A DNA stretch of 64,000 bases from Gammaproteobacteria bacterium (GTDB taxonomy: Bacteria; Pseudomonadota; Gammaproteobacteria; Poriferisulfidales; Poriferisulfidaceae). The position numbers and the translations under genes are program-made. The stretch is taken from positions 1-64,000 of the forward strand of contig JAPOXW010000030.1 in assembly GCA_026706895.1 (NCBI GenBank), in the 5' to 3' direction. How positions within the stretch are numbered: the stretch's first letter is position 1; every line of letters begins with the position of its first letter. This document shows positions 499-53,440 of the stretch, in pieces. The notes under the pieces are model-generated. The model searched no databases. It had not been told where the DNA came from and was given only the letters and a program-made list of their open reading frames with translations.

Positions 499-1128
499 AT
501 GAGCCTCGGCATCATCGGAACCAAGATCGGCATGACGCGGCTGTTTCGCGACAGCGGCGAGTCCGTGCCGGTGACGCTGGTTTCGGTGGACGCCAACCGG
601 GTGGTGCGCGTGAAGACCGGGGAATCGGACGGCTATGCGGCCGTGCAGATGAGCTACGGCACCCGTCCGGCGAAATGGATGCGCCGTCCGCTGGCGGGCG
701 AGATCAAGCAGATTGGGTTGGAGACCGCCCGCGGCCTGAAGGAATTCAGGGTCGAGGCGGACGAGGAACTTCCGGAAGTCGGCGCCGAAGTGGGCGCGGA
801 CCTGTTCGAAGTCGGCCAGAAGGTCAACGTCAGCGGCACCACGATCGGCAAGGGTTTCGCCGGCACGATCAAGCGGCACAACTTCCGCGGCCAGGATCGT
901 TCGCACGGCAATTCGTTGTCGCACCGGGTGATGGGTGCGACTGGACAGTGCCAGTTCCCGGGGCGCGTGTTCAAGGGCAAGAAGATGCCCGGGCGCATGG
1001 GCGGCAAGCAGGTCACCCAGCGCAACCTGGAAGTGGTCCAGGTCAACAGCGAAGAGCAACTGCTTTGGATTCGCGGCGCGGTTCCGGGCACCACCGGCGG
1101 ACGGGTGATTGTCCGTCCGGCGCGGTGA
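499..1128 (+). CDS. rplC: 50S ribosomal protein L3
   Basis: L3 binds near the 3' end of 23S rRNA and helps start 50S assembly. At 209 residues it has the usual length. The N-terminus ([14 protein letters not shown]) and the central [17 protein letters not shown] and SHGNSLSHR segments are family signatures. The last contains the Gln/Gly loop that points to the peptidyl-transferase centre. Second gene of the S10 operon. Confidence 0.97.
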
Positions 1129-1138
1129 GGGAATGGAC

Positions 1139-1756
1139 ATGGAACTGAAGACCCGCGATACCCAGGCTGCCGTGACCGTCGCAGACGAGTGCTTTGACGT
1201 GGCATTTCACGAAGCGCTGGTCCACCAGGCAGTGGTGACCTACGCGCAGCGGGGTCGCCAGGGGACATCCGCGCAGAAGAATCGTGCTGCGGTCCGTGGC
1301 GGCGGCGCCAAGCCCTGGCGCCAGAAAGGCACCGGGCGAGCCCGGGCCGGAAGCATCCGCTCGCCGATCTGGCGTGGCGGAGGTGTGACGCACCCGGCGA
1401 CCAATCGCACGTACAACGCCAAGCTGAACAAGAAGATGTACCGCCACGCGATGCGTTCGATCTTCTCCGAACTGTTGCGTCAGGAGCGCCTGCACGTCGT
1501 GGAATCGTTCGATCTGCCGGAGCCGAAGACCCGGCTCGCTCGCGAGAAGCTTGAAGAGCTCGGCCTGACCAGCGTCCTGATCCTGGTCGAGCGCATGGAG
1601 CCAAACGTATTCCTGGCCGTACGCAACCTTCCGAATTACGATGCCTGCGAAGTGAACGCAGTGGATCCGGTATCGCTGCTGCGATACGAACATGTACTGG
1701 TGACCCGGTCGGCGCTGAGCCTTCTGGAGCAACGTTTGGGGGGTGCGGCGTCATGA
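1139..1756 (+). CDS. rplD: 50S ribosomal protein L4
   Basis: L4 lines the peptide exit tunnel and in enterobacteria represses its own S10 operon. The tunnel loop (KPWRQKGTGRARAGSIRSPIWRGGG) is intact. I place the start at ATG 1139 (MELKTRD) rather than the in-frame ATG at 1133, because GTGAGGG lies about 8 nt upstream and the family begins MEL. Length 205 residues. The stop overlaps rplW by 4 nt (ATGA), suggesting translational coupling. Confidence 0.96.
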   Translation: MELKTRDTQAAVTVADECFDVAFHEALVHQAVVTYAQRGRQGTSAQKNRAAVRGGGAKPWRQKGTGRARAGSIRSPIWRGGGVTHPATNRTYNAKLNKKMYRHAMRSIFSELLRQERLHVVESFDLPEPKTRLAREKLEELGLTSVLILVERMEPNVFLAVRNLPNYDACEVNAVDPVSLLRYEHVLVTRSALSLLEQRLGGAAS

Positions 1757-2217
1757 GCATGTTCGGAAAGATCAAGGGCCTCTTCAAGGGCAAGCCGAAG
1801 GAGGCGCCCGCCGAGGAAATCGAGAAAGTCGAGAAGCCGGAGGCTGAGGACAAGCCGGCTGCGGCGAAGAAAGTCGCGGCTGCTCCGGCGAAGCCGGCCA
1901 AGCCGAAACCTGCCCCGGTCGTCGCCAAGAAGCCCAGCGAAGAACGCCTGAGCCGGGTGATCCTGGGTGCCCGGATGTCCGAGAAATCAGTGCGTCTGGC
2001 AGAAAACGAGCAGCATGTCTTCGAGGTGCTGAAGGATGCAACCCGCGATGAAGTCAAGCATGCAGTCGAGACGATGTTCGACGTAAAGGTTGACGGAGTG
2101 CGGATGGCCAACGTTCGTGGCAAGGTCAAGCGCCAGGGCCGCCGCAGTGACTGGAGCAAGGCCTATGTGCGGCTTGCGCCCGGGCAGACCATCGAAGGCG
2201 CGGAGATTGGGGCATGA
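1753..2217 (+). CDS. rplW: 50S ribosomal protein L23, with long N-terminal extension
   Basis: L23 lies at the exit of the peptide tunnel and docks trigger factor and SRP. The L23 core begins near residue 62 ([18 protein letters not shown]) and ends with [17 protein letters not shown]. About 60 extra residues precede it: a short basic amphipathic start ([12 protein letters not shown]) and then a Lys/Ala/Pro/Glu-rich tail. The protein has 154 residues against about 100 for the family. The start overlaps the rplD stop. An alternative ATG at 1759 would change little. Confidence 0.95.
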
Positions 2218-3047
2218 CCGTCGTCAAGGCTCGCCCGACTTCTCCCGGCCGCCGGTTCCGCGCCAGCGTCCGCACGCCGGATTTGCATCGCGGCAAGCCG
2301 CATCGGGCACTGGTTTCAGGCCAGTCGAAGACGGGGGGGCGCAACAACCAGGGGCGCATCACCACCCGCCACATCGGCGGTGGCCACAAGCAGCTCTACC
2401 GGACGATTGATTTTCGTCGCAACAAGGACGATATCCCGGCCCGGGTGGAACGGATCGAATACGACCCGAACCGCAGTTCGCACATTGCCCTGCTGCTGTA
2501 TGCGGACGGGGAGCGGCGGTACATCATTGCTGCCGAGGGCTTGAAGGCGGGGATGGAAGTGATGTCCGGCGACAAGGCGCCGATCTCCCCGGGCAACTGC
2601 CTGCCCTTGCGGAACATGCCGGTCGGCATCATGGTGCACTGCGTGGAACTGCGTCCCGGCGGCGGCGCACGCCTGGCGCGCAGCGCAGGCACGTACGTCC
2701 AACTGCTAGCCCGTGAAGGCGCTTACGCCACGCTGCGGCTGCGTTCCGGTGAGATGCGCAAGGTGCTGAGCGAGTGCCGCGCGGCAGTCGGCGAAGTGGG
2801 CAATGCGGAACATTCCCTGGCCAAGCTCGGCAAGGCCGGCGCGAAGCGCTGGCGCGGGGTGCGCCCGACGGTGCGCGGCGTGGCCATGAATCCGGTCGAT
2901 CACCCGCACGGCGGCGGCGAAGGCAAGACCTCCGGCGGCCGCCACCCGGTCACCCCTTGGGGCGTGCCGACCAAAGGACACAAGACCCGACACAACAAGC
3001 GGACCAATTACCTGATTGTCCGCCGCCGCCACAAGAAACAACGGTGA
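2214..3047 (+). CDS. rplB: 50S ribosomal protein L2
   Basis: L2 is a primary 23S rRNA-binding protein needed for subunit association and peptidyl transfer. At 277 residues it has normal length. The C-terminal [17 protein letters not shown] segment contains the conserved His of the catalytic-centre loop. It overlaps rplW by 4 nt. Confidence 0.97.
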
Positions 3048-3051
3048 TGCC

Positions 3052-3327
3052 ATGCCACGTTCACTGAAGAAAGGCCCGTTCGTCGACCATCACCTGATGG
3101 CCAAGGTGCGCGAGGCCGTCGAGAACAACGACCGCCGCCAGATCAAGACCTGGTCGCGGCGTTCCATGATTGTGCCGGAGATGGTCGGGCTGACCCTGGC
3201 CGTGCACGACGGCCGCCGGCATGTCCCGGTGCTGGTCAACGAGAACATGGTGGGACACAAGCTCGGCGAATTCGCGCTGACGCGCACGTTCCGGCAACAT
3301 GCGGGCGATCGCAAGGCGAAGGCCTGA
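3052..3327 (+). CDS. rpsS: 30S ribosomal protein S19
   Basis: S19 is in the 30S head and contacts the A-site finger and S13. The start at ATG 3052 gives [15 protein letters not shown], the family N-terminus. A longer reading frame from 3016 lies inside rplB and is not credible. Length 91 residues. It shares one base with the rplV start (TGATG). Confidence 0.97.
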
Positions 3328-3665
3328 TGGAAACGCGCTGCGTCTCCCGCTATCAGCGCATCAGCCCGCGCAAGTGCCGGCTGGTGGCCAACCAGGTGCG
3401 TAGCCTGCCGGTCGGGGAAGCCTTGGAAATCCTGCGCTTCTCGCCACACAAGGCGGCGCAGTTGATGCGCAAGACCATGGAGTCGGCGTTGGCCAACGCG
3501 GAGCACAATCACGGCGCGGACATCGACCTGCTGCGGGTGAGCCGCGTGACGGTCGATGAAGGGCCGGTATTCAAGCGCTTCCGCCCGCGCGCCCGGGGCC
3601 GGGTCGGAAAGATCCTGAAGCGCACCAGCCACATCACGGTCGTGCTGAGCGACGCGGAGGAGTAA
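3327..3665 (+). CDS. rplV: 50S ribosomal protein L22
   Basis: L22 reaches with a long hairpin to the narrowest point of the peptide tunnel, the region affected in macrolide resistance. The [15 protein letters not shown] and [21 protein letters not shown] segments are typical. Length 112 residues. It starts within the rpsS stop codon and is followed 2 nt later by rpsC. Confidence 0.96.
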
Positions 3666-3667
3666 GC

Positions 3668-4327
3668 ATGGGACAGAAAGTCAACCCGATCGGATTCCGC
3701 CTCGGCATCATGACCGACTGGAACTCGAACTGGTACGCGGAGGGCACCGAATACCGCGACCAGCTCAACAACGACCTCATGGTTCGCGATTTCCTGCGCC
3801 ACAAGCTGGCGCAGGCTTCGGTCAGCCGTATCCGGATCGAGCGGCGCAACGACACGGCCGAGATCACCATCCATACGGCCCGTCCCGGAATCGTGATCGG
3901 CAAGAAGGGCAACGATATTGAGATCCTGCGCCGCGAAGTTGCGCAGATGATGGGTCTGGCTCTCGGCACGGTCAAGATCAACATCGATGAGATTCACAAC
4001 CCGGAAGTGGATGCCCACCTGGTGGCCGAGAGTGTCGCCCAGCAGTTGGAAGGGCGCATCATGTACCGGCGCGCCATGAAGCGGGCCGTGCAGAACGCCA
4101 TGCGGCTTGGCGTTCAGGGAATCAAGTTGAACGTGGCCGGGCGTCTCAATGGCGCCGAGATCGCGCGCAGCGAATGGTGCCGCGAAGGCCGGGTTCCGTT
4201 GCATACCCTGCGCGCGGACATTGATTACGGATTCGCCGAGGCGCGGACCACCTACGGCATTATCGGTGTCAAGGCCTGGATCTTCAACGGCGAGATCGGC
4301 GGGCCGGACGGGTCGCTCGGCAAGTAA
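3668..4327 (+). CDS. rpsC: 30S ribosomal protein S3
   Basis: S3 lines the mRNA entry channel and contributes to helicase activity. It starts [13 protein letters not shown] and has a KH domain with the GKKG motif ([11 protein letters not shown]), then the C-terminal [14 protein letters not shown] segment. Length 219 residues, slightly shorter than the 233 of E. coli because the C-terminal tail is reduced. Confidence 0.97.
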
Positions 4328-4342
4328 CGGAGACCGCCCGCC

Positions 4343-4756
4343 ATGATGCAACCCAAGCGCACCCGCTATCGCAAGCAGCAGAAAGGCCGCAACCGGGGCC
4401 TGTCGCAGCGTGGGAGCAAGGTCAGCTTCGGTGAGTACGGCCTGAAGGCGACCACGGGAGGGCGCCTGACTGCCCGCCAGATCGAGGCGGCTCGGCGGGC
4501 CATGACCCGTCACATCCGGCGCGGCGGCAAGATCTGGATCCGGGTGTTCCCGGATGTTCCGGTGACCAAGAAGCCGCTGGAGTCGCGTCAGGGCAAGGGC
4601 AAGGGCAACGTCGAGTACTGGGTTGCCAAGATCCAGCCGGGTCGCATGCTTTACGAAATCGAAGGCGTTCAGGAAGACCTGGCGCGCGAGGCGTTTCGCC
4701 GCGCTGCCGCCAAGCTTCCGGTCCAGACCACCTTCGCGCACCGGACGTTGGCCTGA
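4343..4756 (+). CDS. rplP: 50S ribosomal protein L16
   Basis: L16 organises the A site and the 5S rRNA region of the 50S subunit. It begins [19 protein letters not shown] and has the conserved Arg/Gly motif ending in [20 protein letters not shown]. The arginine that YcfD-type oxygenases hydroxylate in E. coli lies in this motif. Length 137 residues. It shares one base with rpmC. Confidence 0.97.
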
Positions 4757-4956
4757 TGGATATGCAGGCCCTGCGCGCGAAAGATGACGCGGAGCTGCGT
4801 GCCGAATTGTTGCGTCTTCGGCGCAGCGAGTTCGAGATGCGGATGCAAGTGCGCATCGGGCAGATGGCGCGCAACCATGCCTTCCAGGAGACGCGTCGCG
4901 ACATCGCCCGGATCAAGACATTGATGACGGAACGTCGTCGGGGAGAGAAGAAATGA
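4756..4956 (+). CDS. rpmC: 50S ribosomal protein L29
   Basis: L29 is a small two-helix protein next to L23 at the tunnel exit. The helical hairpin ([13 protein letters not shown], then [16 protein letters not shown]) fits the family. Length 66 residues. It overlaps rpsQ by 4 nt. Confidence 0.95.
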
Positions 4957-18841: not shown

Positions 18842-19330
18842 ATGTCGAGAGGAGTCAATAAAGTGATTCTGGTGGGGACTTTGGGGGCTGATCCCGAACT
18901 TCGCCAGACCAACAGTGGATCCAGTGTTTGCAACATGCGAATCGCCACCAACGACTGGCGGCGGGACAGTGCAACGAATGAACGGGTGGAAACGACCGAA
19001 TGGCACAACATCGTGCTGTTCAAACGCTTGGCCGAAGTAGCGGAACGCTACCTGAAAAAAGGTTCTCAGGTGTATATTGAGGGCAAGTTGCGAACCCGGA
19101 AATGGCAGGATCGGGATGGGAATAACCGCTACAGCACGGAAGTGATCGCCAACGACATGCAGTTGTTAGGCGCGCGCGGCGGCAGTGGCGGCTATGCATC
19201 GGAAAGCCAGGGGAACTATATGTCGGAAAACTCGAGGCCGAGCGGCGGCAATGGTCCCGGCTCGGGGGGGGCTCCGGCAGAGGCTCCGGCAGGGGATGAT
19301 GCCGACTTTGATGACGACATTCCGTTTTAG
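18842..19330 (+). CDS. ssb: Single-stranded DNA-binding protein
   Basis: SSB coats single-stranded DNA and recruits repair and replication enzymes. It has an N-terminal OB fold ([20 protein letters not shown]), a Gly-rich linker and the acidic tip DDDIPF that binds partner proteins. Length 162 residues. GGAGGA precedes the ATG. The 117-nt upstream gap is unusually AT-rich (TATAAT at 18737) and probably holds its promoter. Confidence 0.98.
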
Positions 19331-50185: not shown

Positions 50186-50193
50186 TCTTGTTA
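50186..50193 (+). repeat. Left target-site duplication
   Basis: TCTTGTTA, identical to 53249-53256 on the same strand, directly outside the left inverted repeat. Confidence 0.93.
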
Positions 50194-50220
50194 GGGAATT
50201 ATGTAGCAAAATCTGCAAAA
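50194..50220 (+). repeat. Left terminal inverted repeat of the transposon
   Basis: 27 bp, exact reverse complement of 53222-53248. Identity ends sharply at base 27. Confidence 0.95.
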
Positions 50221-50221
50221 A

Positions 50222-50395
50222 TCATTTCCGCCGCTTCAATTTGAAGCCCGCCGATAGCTCTTTCATGGTCGGTTCCCGATTTTCCCAACGGGATTGCTTC
50301 TGCAAGGGTTTCAGCAGGATGCTTTTCAGCGCATCCTGAAAGTCTTTCAATGAAACCGGCTCGTGGTCGGCTGGGTCGAGTTCTTGACGTTTCAC
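50222..50395 (-). CDS. Small basic protein of the transposon, 57 residues
   Basis: Starting at GTG 50395, 2 nt past the upstream small gene, the frame gives MKRQELDPADHEPVSLKDFQ and ends in a basic SAGFKLKRRK. It stops one base before the left inverted repeat. A longer frame from GTG 50467 overlaps the membrane peptide in another frame. I recognise no family. Its tight packing against the transposon end suggests it is a true cargo gene. Confidence 0.55.
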   Translation of the reverse strand: MKRQELDPADHEPVSLKDFQDALKSILLKPLQKQSRWENREPTMKELSAGFKLKRRK

Positions 50396-50397
50396 TT

Positions 50398-50511
50398 TTA
50401 TATGCCTGGTATTGGCATAAGGATTAATATCAACGTAAGGATAACGGCTATGTATGTCAGTCGCCACCTAATCTGACGCAAGATTTCTTGTTCGGCTCCA
50501 TTCTCGCTCAT
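50398..50511 (-). CDS. Small membrane protein of the transposon, 37 residues
   Basis: MSENGAEQEILRQIRWRLTY, then a hydrophobic helix (about residues 19-36) ending MPIPGI. AAGGAG stands 8 nt before the ATG. It begins 32 nt after the methyltransferase-nuclease stop and is followed 2 nt later by the basic protein. The function is unknown; the pair could modulate the restriction enzyme or the transposase. Confidence 0.6.
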   Translation of the reverse strand: MSENGAEQEILRQIRWRLTYIAVILTLILILMPIPGI

Positions 50512-50543
50512 TTCCCTACTCCTTGATCGTTGCGATTTACAAA

Positions 50544-52220
50544 TCATATCAGGTGTATCTGCGCCATAGGTTTGCCGGTGTATGGATTCAGCATGGGTGG
50601 AAGGTTTGGAAATCGTCCGTCAAAGTATTCCTCTATCGACCAGAATTGAACACGCGGATAATTGTTCGCACCAATCTCGAACCTGCCCATGCTCTCAAAT
50701 TCCTGATACGCACTCCGTTTTCTCCTGTCCACCTTTTCGGTAGTGATGAACACACCACAAACGGCTTTTTCCCTGTCTATGGTGCATAAGAAATCTCTGG
50801 CATCAGAAGCCAATCCGCCAAGCCCTCCGCTCTTGACTTGAGCCAATGCAAGATTGAGATCATTCCATTTGTTCATAAGCGTAGCTCGCCCGTCTATTCC
50901 GCCATCGCCCACCTGCTTCTGATTTGGAACAAATCCTGGAATTTTGTTTATTGCCCATTTCTCAAATCCGAATCTGTCGGCCTCTGCCAGTCGTTTGGCA
51001 CCAGTAAGGTCTAATGGGATACCTGCTGTTTGGATTTGAGGGTCTTGCAGGCGTTCATTGATAATCAGGTCGATGGCGAAGGAGGAAATATCAACGCCAA
51101 GCCATTGCCTGTTCAATCTATGAGCCGCATCTACCGCCGTGCCACATCCACAGAACGGGTCGAGTACCACGTCTCCCTTGTTTGTGCTGGCCTCAATGAT
51201 GCGTTCCAATAATGCCCTTGGTTTTCTGGTCGGATAATCCGCAATGTTCTTAACTTCTCCCTCAAGGGATATGTCCGTCCATATGTCATTGACTTTCGGT
51301 CCTCGGTTGGCAGCATTGGCAGGGCGAAAAAGCTCTGGTGTCCCCTTCTTTGAAAATTTAATAAATCCTTTCTCATGCAATGCGTCCAATCGTTCATGAA
51401 CGCTTTCAATGTTCTTGTATCCGGGAATGAGGTTTTTCTCTATCCAGTCCGCGTAGGTTCCAGTTTTAGGAACCGACCAATGCCTTCCTCTACCTGATTT
51501 GGCAGGGTCATACCCGTGCCAAAGTTTACCCGCTTCCCCTTGTGAAATCCCTGAACCAGTCAGTGGGATAGTTCGATCTCCCTTGACGACTAAACCATCT
51601 TGATGATATTGGTTTTTCCAAGTCGCTCCTTTTTCAGCGTAAAACAATATTGAATCCGAAATGCGCCCATATCGGTTTCCATCGCCTCTTGATGTTGTTC
51701 GTTTCCAAGTGATTTCATTTTGATAAATTTTAGCCCCAAAAACATCGTCCATGACTACCTTCAAGTAGTGGCTTGCTGTAGGATCGCAATGAAGATATAG
51801 GCTTCCTGTACTTTTCAGGATGCGCCTCATTTCCGCCAGTCTTTCCGCCATATAGGACAGATAGGAAAGCATCCCGCAATCCCCTAGTACCAAATGCAAT
51901 CCGGTGACCGACTTGTGCGCCGGATGCGCCACCGCACCCTTGATGCTTTCTACTCGTTCATGTGCTTTCTCGTTCCATGTCCATGTATCTTCGAATGCCT
52001 GCAACTGGGCGGGCTTGCCGTTCTGTGTCCCGAAAAGAATGTTGTAGTTGGTATCCGATTTGAAAGGGGGGTCGAGATATATCAAGTCGATACATTCGTC
52101 CGGCCATTTCTGCATCCAGTCCAAACAATCTCCATAGTAAAGAGTGTTTGGCTGAAAATCTGATTTTCTGCGGGGGGGGGGGTCACGACACAAGCACCTT
52201 GTAGGGAATGCGCTTGCCAC
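50544..52220 (-). CDS. DNA methyltransferase fused to Mrr-like nuclease domain
   Basis: A 558-residue protein. Residues 25-400 are a beta-class N6-adenine/N4-cytosine methyltransferase: DPPF (motif IV) at 50-53 precedes the SAM motif DPFCGCG at 354-360. Residues 415-535 look like a PD-(D/E)XK nuclease of the Mrr type: GDGGIDG (D443) and QVK (461-463). One protein may thus both modify and cut DNA. The start is GTG 52220, with AAGGGA upstream, inside the end of the transposase gene. An 11-C tract at codons 13-17 precedes every catalytic motif. The target sequence cannot be inferred. Confidence 0.85.
   Translation of the reverse strand: MASAFPTRCLCRDPPPRRKSDFQPNTLYYGDCLDWMQKWPDECIDLIYLDPPFKSDTNYNILFGTQNGKPAQLQAFEDTWTWNEKAHERVESIKGAVAHPAHKSVTGLHLVLGDCGMLSYLSYMAERLAEMRRILKSTGSLYLHCDPTASHYLKVVMDDVFGAKIYQNEITWKRTTSRGDGNRYGRISDSILFYAEKGATWKNQYHQDGLVVKGDRTIPLTGSGISQGEAGKLWHGYDPAKSGRGRHWSVPKTGTYADWIEKNLIPGYKNIESVHERLDALHEKGFIKFSKKGTPELFRPANAANRGPKVNDIWTDISLEGEVKNIADYPTRKPRALLERIIEASTNKGDVVLDPFCGCGTAVDAAHRLNRQWLGVDISSFAIDLIINERLQDPQIQTAGIPLDLTGAKRLAEADRFGFEKWAINKIPGFVPNQKQVGDGGIDGRATLMNKWNDLNLALAQVKSGGLGGLASDARDFLCTIDREKAVCGVFITTEKVDRRKRSAYQEFESMGRFEIGANNYPRVQFWSIEEYFDGRFPNLPPMLNPYTGKPMAQIHLI
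52172..52182 (+). repeat. 11-base G/C homopolymer in the methyltransferase start region
   Basis: Eleven G on the plus strand (C on the coding strand), encoding D-P-P-P-R at residues 13-17 of the methyltransferase-nuclease. It lies directly after the transposase stop. No in-frame start codon occurs between the tract and the first methyltransferase motif, so a one-base length change would switch the gene off. Confidence 0.85.
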
Positions 52221-53106
52221 CCATTCCCTTCACCAGTGAATCCATGCGGTCGATTGTATCAATTTCGCAATTCCCCTCATTGAGCCGGAACGTAAATTCG
52301 TTCAAGTACCGATGCAGATGCTTCTTGCTGACATGGTGGAAGGTTCCGTTCACGCCACGCTTGAGTACAGCCCATACTGACTCCACGCCGTTTGTGTGCG
52401 CCATATCATTGACATATTCTTTCGCGCTGTGATTGACCGTGTAATGCCGATGGGCAACGCCGGTGTAGGACGGGTTTTCGTCCGTGTAGATCGTGGAGCC
52501 GGGTCGAACATTCTCATGCACTTTGCCCTGCAAGGTGGGCTTGGTGGTGTCGGCAATCGGCATGGCCTTGACCTTGCCGCCGCGTTCACGAAGTCCAAGC
52601 ACGGCCTGTTTGCCACCCCCACCACCGCCGACACGAAGTTTCTTGCTCTCATGCTTGTTGTCCTCCAACCCGCCGATATATGTCTCGTCAATTTCAACAG
52701 AACCGAACAGTTTGAAGTCTCCCTGCTGGCAAGCTTCGCGGATCCGGTGAAGCATGTACCAGGCGGTGCGCTGCTGCACGCCCAGCTCCTTGCTCAACTG
52801 GAGGCTGCTCACGCTCTTGCGTGCGGTCAGCACGGAGTAGATGGCAACCACCCAGTTCTGCGTGGAAGTCTTGGAAGCGTGCATGATGGTGCCGGTCTTG
52901 ACCGTGAAGTTTTTTCTGCACGGCTTGCACCAGTAGGTGAACGGCTTGCTCTTGGGCTTGCTGATCTTCTCGATGCCACTGCAATGCGGGCAGACCGGCG
53001 TGCCGCCCCAGCGTGCCTGTTCCAGCCATTCGATGGATTTGCGCTCGGTTGAAAACTGTTTCAGCAACTGCGTGATGCTGATGGTTTCCGCTTTTCGTTT
53101 GCTCAT
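52183..53106 (-). CDS. IS1595-family transposase (ISXO2-like)
   Basis: A 307-residue DDE transposase. It has an N-terminal zinc ribbon (C39, C42, C60, C63) and a catalytic core with D140 in VEIDETYIGG, D209 in YTDENPSY and N239/E242 in HTNGVESVW. GGAG lies about 12 nt before the ATG. The frame is intact and its stop overlaps the start region of the methyltransferase-nuclease, suggesting joint expression. Confidence 0.95.
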   Translation of the reverse strand: MSKRKAETISITQLLKQFSTERKSIEWLEQARWGGTPVCPHCSGIEKISKPKSKPFTYWCKPCRKNFTVKTGTIMHASKTSTQNWVVAIYSVLTARKSVSSLQLSKELGVQQRTAWYMLHRIREACQQGDFKLFGSVEIDETYIGGLEDNKHESKKLRVGGGGGGKQAVLGLRERGGKVKAMPIADTTKPTLQGKVHENVRPGSTIYTDENPSYTGVAHRHYTVNHSAKEYVNDMAHTNGVESVWAVLKRGVNGTFHHVSKKHLHRYLNEFTFRLNEGNCEIDTIDRMDSLVKGMGGKRIPYKVLVS

Positions 53107-53144
53107 TTCTGTATCTCCACAAACAACTCTCTTATTTGCAGATT

Positions 53145-53173
53145 ATTATATCACAGAATTGTATAATTGTCAA
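53145..53173 (-). promoter_or_regulatory. Consensus sigma-70 promoter of the transposon
   Basis: Exact TTGACA and TATAAT boxes 17 nt apart on the minus strand (-35 at 53168-53173, -10 at 53145-53150). Transcription would start near 53137, about 30 nt before the transposase ATG, and could run through all four element genes. Confidence 0.85.
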
Positions 53174-53221
53174 CTCCTGTAAGTCATTGATTCAATGTTC
53201 CTTTGTGGCTGATTTACAATG

Positions 53222-53248
53222 TTTTGCAGATTTTGCTACATAATTCCC
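53222..53248 (+). repeat. Right terminal inverted repeat of the transposon
   Basis: 27 bp, exact reverse complement of 50194-50220. Confidence 0.95.
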
Positions 53249-53256
53249 TCTTGTTA
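53249..53256 (+). repeat. Right target-site duplication
   Basis: TCTTGTTA, identical to 50186-50193. Confidence 0.93.

Positions 53257-53349: not shown

Positions 53350-53440
<91 letters not shown>

Follow-up and report, generated by a model that had tools for sequence, protein, structure and literature searches.

We describe here a mobile element, located at positions 50194-53248 of a 64,000-nucleotide stretch (the window) of a genome of the gammaproteobacterial family Poriferisulfidaceae (assembly GCA_026706895.1, contig JAPOXW010000030.1). The element is best read as an insertion sequence (IS) of the IS1595 family, of the "transporter IS" (tIS) kind, carrying a single-gene, phase-variable restriction-modification (R-M) enzyme; we give this reading a probability of roughly 0.7. 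Its more limited part, namely that the element is a complete, self-mobile IS1595 transposon with an R-M-type fusion as cargo, is supported by the sequence features presented below. Each of the ingredients is already known; their combination appears to be new.

The element and its insertion site

The element is 3,055 bp long and has all its genes on the minus strand. It is bounded by two 27-bp terminal inverted repeats matching at 27 of 27 positions, one at the cargo-side end (50194-50220, plus strand) and one at the transposase-side end (53222-53248, minus strand), and is flanked on both sides by the same 8-bp sequence, TCTTGTTA (50186-50193 and 53249-53256). The cargo-side repeat shares 25 of its 27 positions with an element found in another genome of the genus (G004:C2, loci L023/L085). 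The element has inserted into intergenic DNA, with a DegP/HtrA-type protease gene on one side and a tRNA-Ser gene (53350-53440) on the other. In two genomes of the same genus, G004 (contig C2) and G001 (contig C1), the orthologous site is unoccupied and reads ...TTTCGTCTTGTTATTTGGTCGG..., with a single TCTTGTTA: the insertion is therefore real, and chance repeats are excluded, as is the idea of fixed chromosomal genes lying between them.

The transposase (307 aa, 52183-53106, minus strand) features a zinc ribbon and a DDE domain (VEIDETYIGG...TIYTDE...HTNGVESVWAVLKRG), and scores above the respective cut-offs with PF12760 (33.0 bits, cut-off 25.4), PF12762 (147.9 bits, cut-off 27; E 3e-43) and NCBIfam NF033547 (203.6 bits, cut-off 75). 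Together with the repeats at its ends and the 8-bp duplication of the target, this transposase places the element in the IS1595 family. The passenger gene (50544-52220), unrelated to transposition, lies entirely within the ends of this single IS, and movement as a unit is indicated by the empty sites, as well as by a sister element present in genome G202 as three duplication-flanked copies.

A first-pass annotation of the same DNA, spanning 50186-53256 and hence both copies of the duplication, had reported perfect 27-bp ends, a perfect 8-bp duplication, an IS1595-family transposase and a fused methyltransferase-nuclease as cargo, and all these descriptions hold, the last one on the strength of the PF01555 match, the catalytic motifs and the MspJI/AspBHI fold matches detailed below. 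The check it proposed, a search of related genomes for empty sites with one TCTTGTTA, gave a positive answer in G001 and G004; the opposite outcome, a cargo fixed in relatives with no empty sites, was not seen. Its account of the architecture thus stands, while it overlooked the poly-C tract, the second element, the swapping of cargo and the breadth of the family.

The cargo enzyme

The cargo, read from the same strand as the transposase and directly behind it, is an open reading frame (ORF) of 558 aa when counted from a GTG at 52220 (50544-52220, minus strand). Its methyltransferase domain is recognized by PF01555 (E 3e-41) and by PADLOC as MTase_II/III. Motif IV (DPPF) precedes motif I (DPFCGCGT), an order which marks a beta-class methyltransferase, and Foldseek matches for this part include EcoP15I Mod, the Mod structure 6k0w, CcrM and MboII, with the Mod structures on top. 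A Mrr/MspJI-like nuclease domain is predicted at the C-terminus (residues ~405-545; 50586-51008, minus strand), by motif alignment, with D443 within GGIDG and Q461-x-K463 within QVK, and by Foldseek, which returned MspJI (4f0p) and AspBHI (4oc8) with probability 0.98 and E 0.02. The structure model, in which the recognition segment and the N-terminal linker are of low confidence, was used for domain matches only. DPPF, DPFCGCGT and GGIDG...QVK are all retained in an alignment of three close copies, and D443 and K463 are invariant in an eight-sequence alignment. Between motifs IV and I, a putative target-recognition segment (residues ~175-325; 51246-51698, minus strand) was delimited by alignment of the window gene with loci L007 and L019, and is largely replaced in a second copy found in the same genome, on contig C15.

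As judged from motifs and fold, a single chain holds the complete methyltransferase catalytic motifs and a nuclease domain, so that the protein probably has both activities. The domain order is not that of a classical type IIG enzyme: since the beta-class methyltransferase comes first and the nuclease is C-terminal, the enzyme may be said to work like a type IIG enzyme, not to be one. A type III R-M system was also considered and rejected, because no Res helicase-nuclease ORF is found inside the element.

Relatives of the fusion with about 35-41% identity are lone chromosomal genes in several phyla, indicating that this enzyme family is older and more widespread than the transposon. The search for plasmid-borne copies retrieved only relatives below 60% identity, and none of four inspected plasmid IS1595 neighbourhoods had an R-M gene directly behind the transposase. 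A viral origin finds no support, the single match in a viral contig (L018) being a 40% relative with broken frames.

A poly-C tract sets the reading frame

A homopolymer of 11 C on the coding (minus) strand (52172-52182) separates the methyltransferase domain from its possible start codons. At the assembled length, the enzyme is in frame from a GTG located inside the transposase gene (52218-52220, minus strand). An alternative GTG (52184-52186, minus strand), overlapping the transposase stop codon TGA (GTGA) and preceded by AAGGTG, a candidate ribosome site, is in frame with the enzyme only at C9, C12 or C15, and at C10 or C13 neither GTG leads into the enzyme. Tract length thus determines the reading frame, as in contingency genes. 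Where the 558-aa protein begins is therefore uncertain: the two candidate starts are not in the same frame, and the tract lies between either of them and the enzyme domain. Relatives outside transposons begin one or two residues ahead of the motif NTLYYGDN, so translation in the window must run through the tract, and residues 1-24 of the ORF should be regarded as a junction and not as part of the enzyme. Slippage at the tract could not produce a transposase-methyltransferase fusion, as the transposase stop codon comes before the tract.

The tract recurs. In the second copy of the fusion gene in the same genome, on contig C15, C11 is found at the corresponding place, behind ATGTCG and in frame. 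In a sample of 37 distinct methyltransferase genes of this broad type with known 5' sequence, seven feature at least seven C on the coding strand within the 96-nt zone preceding the enzyme, as compared to 0.57% of background 96-nt windows from the same loci; the corresponding binomial probability, 2e-9, is too small, the test being optimistic because the 37 genes are related. The genes of this sample are spread over f1, f48 and f46 (two genera in f46), counted as four families, and the diverged genes bearing a tract include those of G202, G064, G777 and G778.

Sister copies can be compared in G202, where a single 2.16-Mb contig contains three copies of a 2,530/2,531-bp IS1595 element, flanked by the duplications AAATTAAA, TAAATTTT and TTATTTTA and composed of a transposase and a methyltransferase-HNH fusion which faces it. 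The three copies differ at one position only, the C run at codons 10-12 of the fusion, which reads C7, C7 and C8, in a type of sequence where assemblies are error-prone. The C8 copy has an open 401-aa frame; in the C7 copies the frame is lost, and no ATG, GTG or TTG is available in the enzyme frame before the first conserved motif. This is the pattern that a switch would be expected to produce.

A further, suggestive hint of tract heterogeneity comes from G002, in which locus L007 starts just past the tract position, at a contig break; a repeated transposase would also break the contig. Two other loci were noted. In G778 (contig C163, L210), the 5' end of a methyltransferase-HNH gene carries C19, two G10 runs lie a very short distance upstream, and no IS1595 transposase was found in the stretch examined. 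On contig C8 of the host genome (G000; L152, 111300-114300, at about 1481-1524 of the locus), C14 directly precedes a methyltransferase-like start (PPPPLQRTKWPNRTLFHGDDM...), whose frame continues into something else; this is possibly the remnant of another tract-bearing methyltransferase.

Related elements and exchange of cargo

The second complete element of the host genome, on contig C15, has 30-bp ends and an 8-bp duplication, TAAATCAA (plus strand). Its transposase is 45% identical to that of the window, and it carries the same fusion gene with the recognition segment replaced. The window gene shares 90% identity with its L007 counterpart (G002:C108) and 71% with the one on C15. The right end of the L007 element reads GGGAACTATATACAATAATCCGC and the ends of the C15 element read GGGGATTATATACTTGGCTACACAAGGCTG: three elements whose ends differ thus share one fusion gene, and cargo and vehicle have been swapped. 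Within the gene, window and C15 copies are mostly identical in the flanks and largely different at residues ~175-325, and the two C15 matches to the window fusion break between residues 205 and 276, as expected if recognition segments had been exchanged.

Other R-M genes travel in the same way. Within the genus, the genes located behind IS1595 transposases include, besides the Mrr fusion of the window and C15, an HNH fusion (G004:C2), a methyltransferase paired with a REase_II nuclease (G002:C81), a methyltransferase with a 209-aa ORF (G003:C27) and an EcoRI-type methyltransferase with REase_II next to a decayed transposase (G003:C34). Beyond the genus we found a GIY-YIG fusion (L014), other methyltransferases (G060, G777), and a partial transposase followed by a type IIG enzyme (G243, L099). 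Target duplications flank the G004:C2 and G002:C81 elements, the three HNH fusion elements of G202 and a type IIG element of G393. The latter (L178, G393:C10:324000-331000) is a complete IS1595 element of 4,053 bp (815-4867 of the locus), whose cargo is a 628-aa type IIG-like enzyme together with a 327-aa possible specificity subunit.

A transposase tree of 60 rows, from which truncated or frame-shifted transposases had been left out, contains one clade (support 100/100) in which 11 of 18 transposases come with R-M cargo, against one of the 42 outside it. Without the rows found through the methyltransferase, the figures become 8 of 15 and 0 of 41, with a Fisher p of 4.5e-6, an optimistic value because the rows of the tree are related. 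A well-supported clade of IS1595 transposases therefore repeatedly carries R-M genes of unrelated kinds. Members of the same clade with a cargo other than a methyltransferase were also found (L117, L118, L120, L079). In three of them (L117, L118 and L120, a sub-clade from other classes) the cargo ORF, of 310-350 aa, is start/stop-overlapping and does not evidently resemble methyltransferases.

Small ORFs and other poly-C runs

The first-pass annotation had counted four co-directional genes. Four ORFs are indeed present on the minus strand, but the smallest, encoding 49 hydrophobic residues (50398-50547) and overlapping its neighbour, matches no family, is not backed by conservation and is without independent support. 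The neighbour, of 81 aa (50222-50467, minus strand), has no Pfam or NCBIfam match; its C-terminal ~45 residues (SLKDFQDALKSILLKP...ENREPTMKEL...LKRRK) are common to similarly placed small ORFs in other elements of this genus, where the relationship is limited to the C-terminal half. Elements with different cargo encode a short basic protein of this type (F..A...IL...P...ENR.PT..EL...) at their cargo-side end (window, 50222-50467; L007, 1632-1790; the end of the L023/L085 element; L077, 1843-1995); it may serve this IS1595 lineage as an accessory gene for transposition or control.

The host genome contains about 15 poly-C/G runs of 11-23 nt, several of them within 150 nt of an ORF start. The runs recorded as L150-L160 are located at C1:53047, C5:39622, C8:112810, C8:125381-125465, C13:4002, C16:2038, C16:14252, C18:11776, C20:10541, C21:4340, C21:4530 and C22:55449. 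Long runs are also found in genomes of the same genus, one of them ahead of the same ORF in G000:C1 and G001:C15. The picture suggests either a wider set of contingency loci or a mutational bias. Within the window, a run of eight G is found at 19264-19271.

Discussion

According to the reading we favour, the transposase would act on the 27-bp ends, producing 8-bp target duplications, and in this way would have moved the element into the gap between the protease and tRNA-Ser genes. The cargo would be one single-polypeptide R-M enzyme, composed of a beta-class methyltransferase, a recognition segment and a fused Mrr/MspJI-type nuclease, and translated through the C11 tract. Slippage adding or removing a C would shift the enzyme in or out of frame, giving rise, presumably within a population, to ON and OFF copies. 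A likely use of such a device is that an OFF copy could land in an unmethylated genome without killing it, and that a later switch to ON would provide defence against phages, or else make loss of the element costly. The benefit may thus go to the host or to the element itself, as defence or as selfish maintenance by addiction. A bolder version of this scenario, which we put forward tentatively and consider possible at best, is that a whole lineage of R-M-ferrying IS1595 elements uses a poly-C switch to overcome the problem of bringing a restriction enzyme into an unprotected genome: copies would jump or become established OFF and later be selected ON, so that genomes come to host several copies in a mixture of the two states and with exchangeable specificities.

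Several observations weigh against the phase-variable enzyme. The tract of the window is known as C11 only, from a draft assembly and in an error-prone type of sequence; at this length GTG 52220 leads into the enzyme frame, so that this copy would read as ON, not OFF. The C7/C8 difference of G202 is equally subject to homopolymer assembly error. R-M elements of the same clade lack a tract (G004:C2, L218, L213), while tract-bearing genes in G064 (two instances) and G778 have no IS1595 transposase within about 1.5 kb. Given the many poly-C runs of the genus, C11 may derive from host mutational bias. As to the enzyme, the Mrr_cat match, 14.1 bits, is below the Pfam cut-off, the nuclease assignment resting on fold and motif, and the structure was modelled with modest quality, the pLDDT being 57.7 on average and about 75 in the C-terminal domain.

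Some of these points would fit a transposon with the same cargo in which the tract is no switch at all, being neutral, a consequence of the host's tendency to form poly-C, or the seam where cargo and transposase were joined. Host genomes are indeed rich in long poly-C/G runs, several R-M elements do without one, and in both the window and C15 the tract marks the exact point where the same cargo gene meets unrelated transposase ends. We regard this explanation as unlikely, because seven diverged genes, including some from other families, have the C run on the coding strand, in the path from start to enzyme, and because in G202 it is the sole polymorphism among three copies and alters the frame. 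A different proposal concerns the enzyme, which might be degenerate or modification-dependent, with a nuclease inactive or specific for modified DNA, the element then being a mobile epigenetic gene without ordinary restriction. The resemblance of the nuclease domain to the modification-dependent MspJI and AspBHI, and also to Mrr, and the occurrence of 40%-identical relatives as single chromosomal genes point in this direction; the conservation of all three motifs in close copies, the invariance of D443 and K463 and the ordinary R-M pairs borne by other vehicles argue against it, and we consider it improbable.

The remaining alternatives concern the link between transposase and cargo. Passenger genes are known in IS1595 elements (tISSag10/MTnSag1 and tISCpe8; PMC5704250), and other members of the clade have other cargo, so that the element might be an ordinary passenger element born of a chance capture, with no special relationship between this transposase clade and R-M genes; the 8 of 15 against 0 of 41 obtained by transposase-directed sampling makes this improbable as well. 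Conversely, the methyltransferase might serve the transposon by methylating its ends or the transposase promoter, restraining or timing transposition, the nuclease being secondary. Dam methylation acts on IS10 transposition in just this manner. Such a role would agree with the position of the cargo directly behind the transposase, whose stop codon it overlaps or abuts in several elements, and with the association with methyltransferases of unrelated types. It would not account for the swapping of recognition segments between copies, for the nucleases of several unrelated folds which travel along, or for the clade sisters L117, L118, L120 and L079 whose cargo is no methyltransferase, and appears highly improbable.

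The phase-variable R-M transposon, if correct, bears on a standing question: mobile elements are known carriers of R-M systems, but how does a restriction enzyme gain a foothold in a cell with unprotected DNA? An enzyme placed inside a transposon, with a frame set by a stutter-prone tract and with open and broken sister copies, makes this question directly testable. In addition, these elements offer an exchangeable set of enzymes, in which recognition segments and nucleases of several folds are swapped, and would bring phase-variable methylation to environmental bacteria in mobile form.

Comparison with known systems

No description of an IS1595 transposon with a tract-preceded single-gene R-M enzyme was found in the literature, which was covered in part, ISfinder and REBASE lying outside the search. 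A close parallel is found within the IS1595 family, among its transporter IS elements (PMC5704250, PMC3129680), already alluded to by the first-pass annotation, which knew of IS1595 elements with passenger genes. Such elements, exemplified by tISSag10/MTnSag1 and tISCpe8, encode a DDE transposase, end in inverted repeats of 25-30 bp, duplicate 8 bp of their target and contain a passenger gene (PMC5704250), and all of these features are shared by the element of the window; here, however, the passenger is a methyltransferase-nuclease and not a lincomycin resistance gene, and is preceded by a homopolymer tract. R-M genes also move with IS elements in known cases, such as PaeR7I with IS1/IS5 and composite transposons, and a stabilising effect of R-M on the mobile unit has been proposed (PMC3031569, PMC4176335). 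In those cases the R-M genes are flanked by IS copies or joined by them, whereas here a single IS contains the R-M gene, directly behind its transposase.

As regards the enzyme, Cj0031c of Campylobacter jejuni is a single-gene, phase-variable type IIG R-M enzyme, shown experimentally to alter methylation and phage restriction (PMC4889913). It similarly combines nuclease and methyltransferase in one gene, but is not described as transposon cargo in that report. The phase-variable type III Mod proteins, of which EcoP15I and 6k0w provide the top fold matches, likewise have the recognition segment between motifs IV and I; the element differs from them in having no Res helicase subunit and a nuclease fused in cis. 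Switched mod genes typically carry simple repeats near their 5' end. In type IIG enzymes the nuclease is normally N-terminal and the methyltransferase belongs to a class other than beta, while the window enzyme is beta-class with a C-terminal Mrr-like nuclease. Finally, Mrr, MspJI and AspBHI act without a fused methyltransferase: the window nuclease shares their D...QxK core and, by Foldseek, matches their fold, but is joined to a methyltransferase in the same chain.

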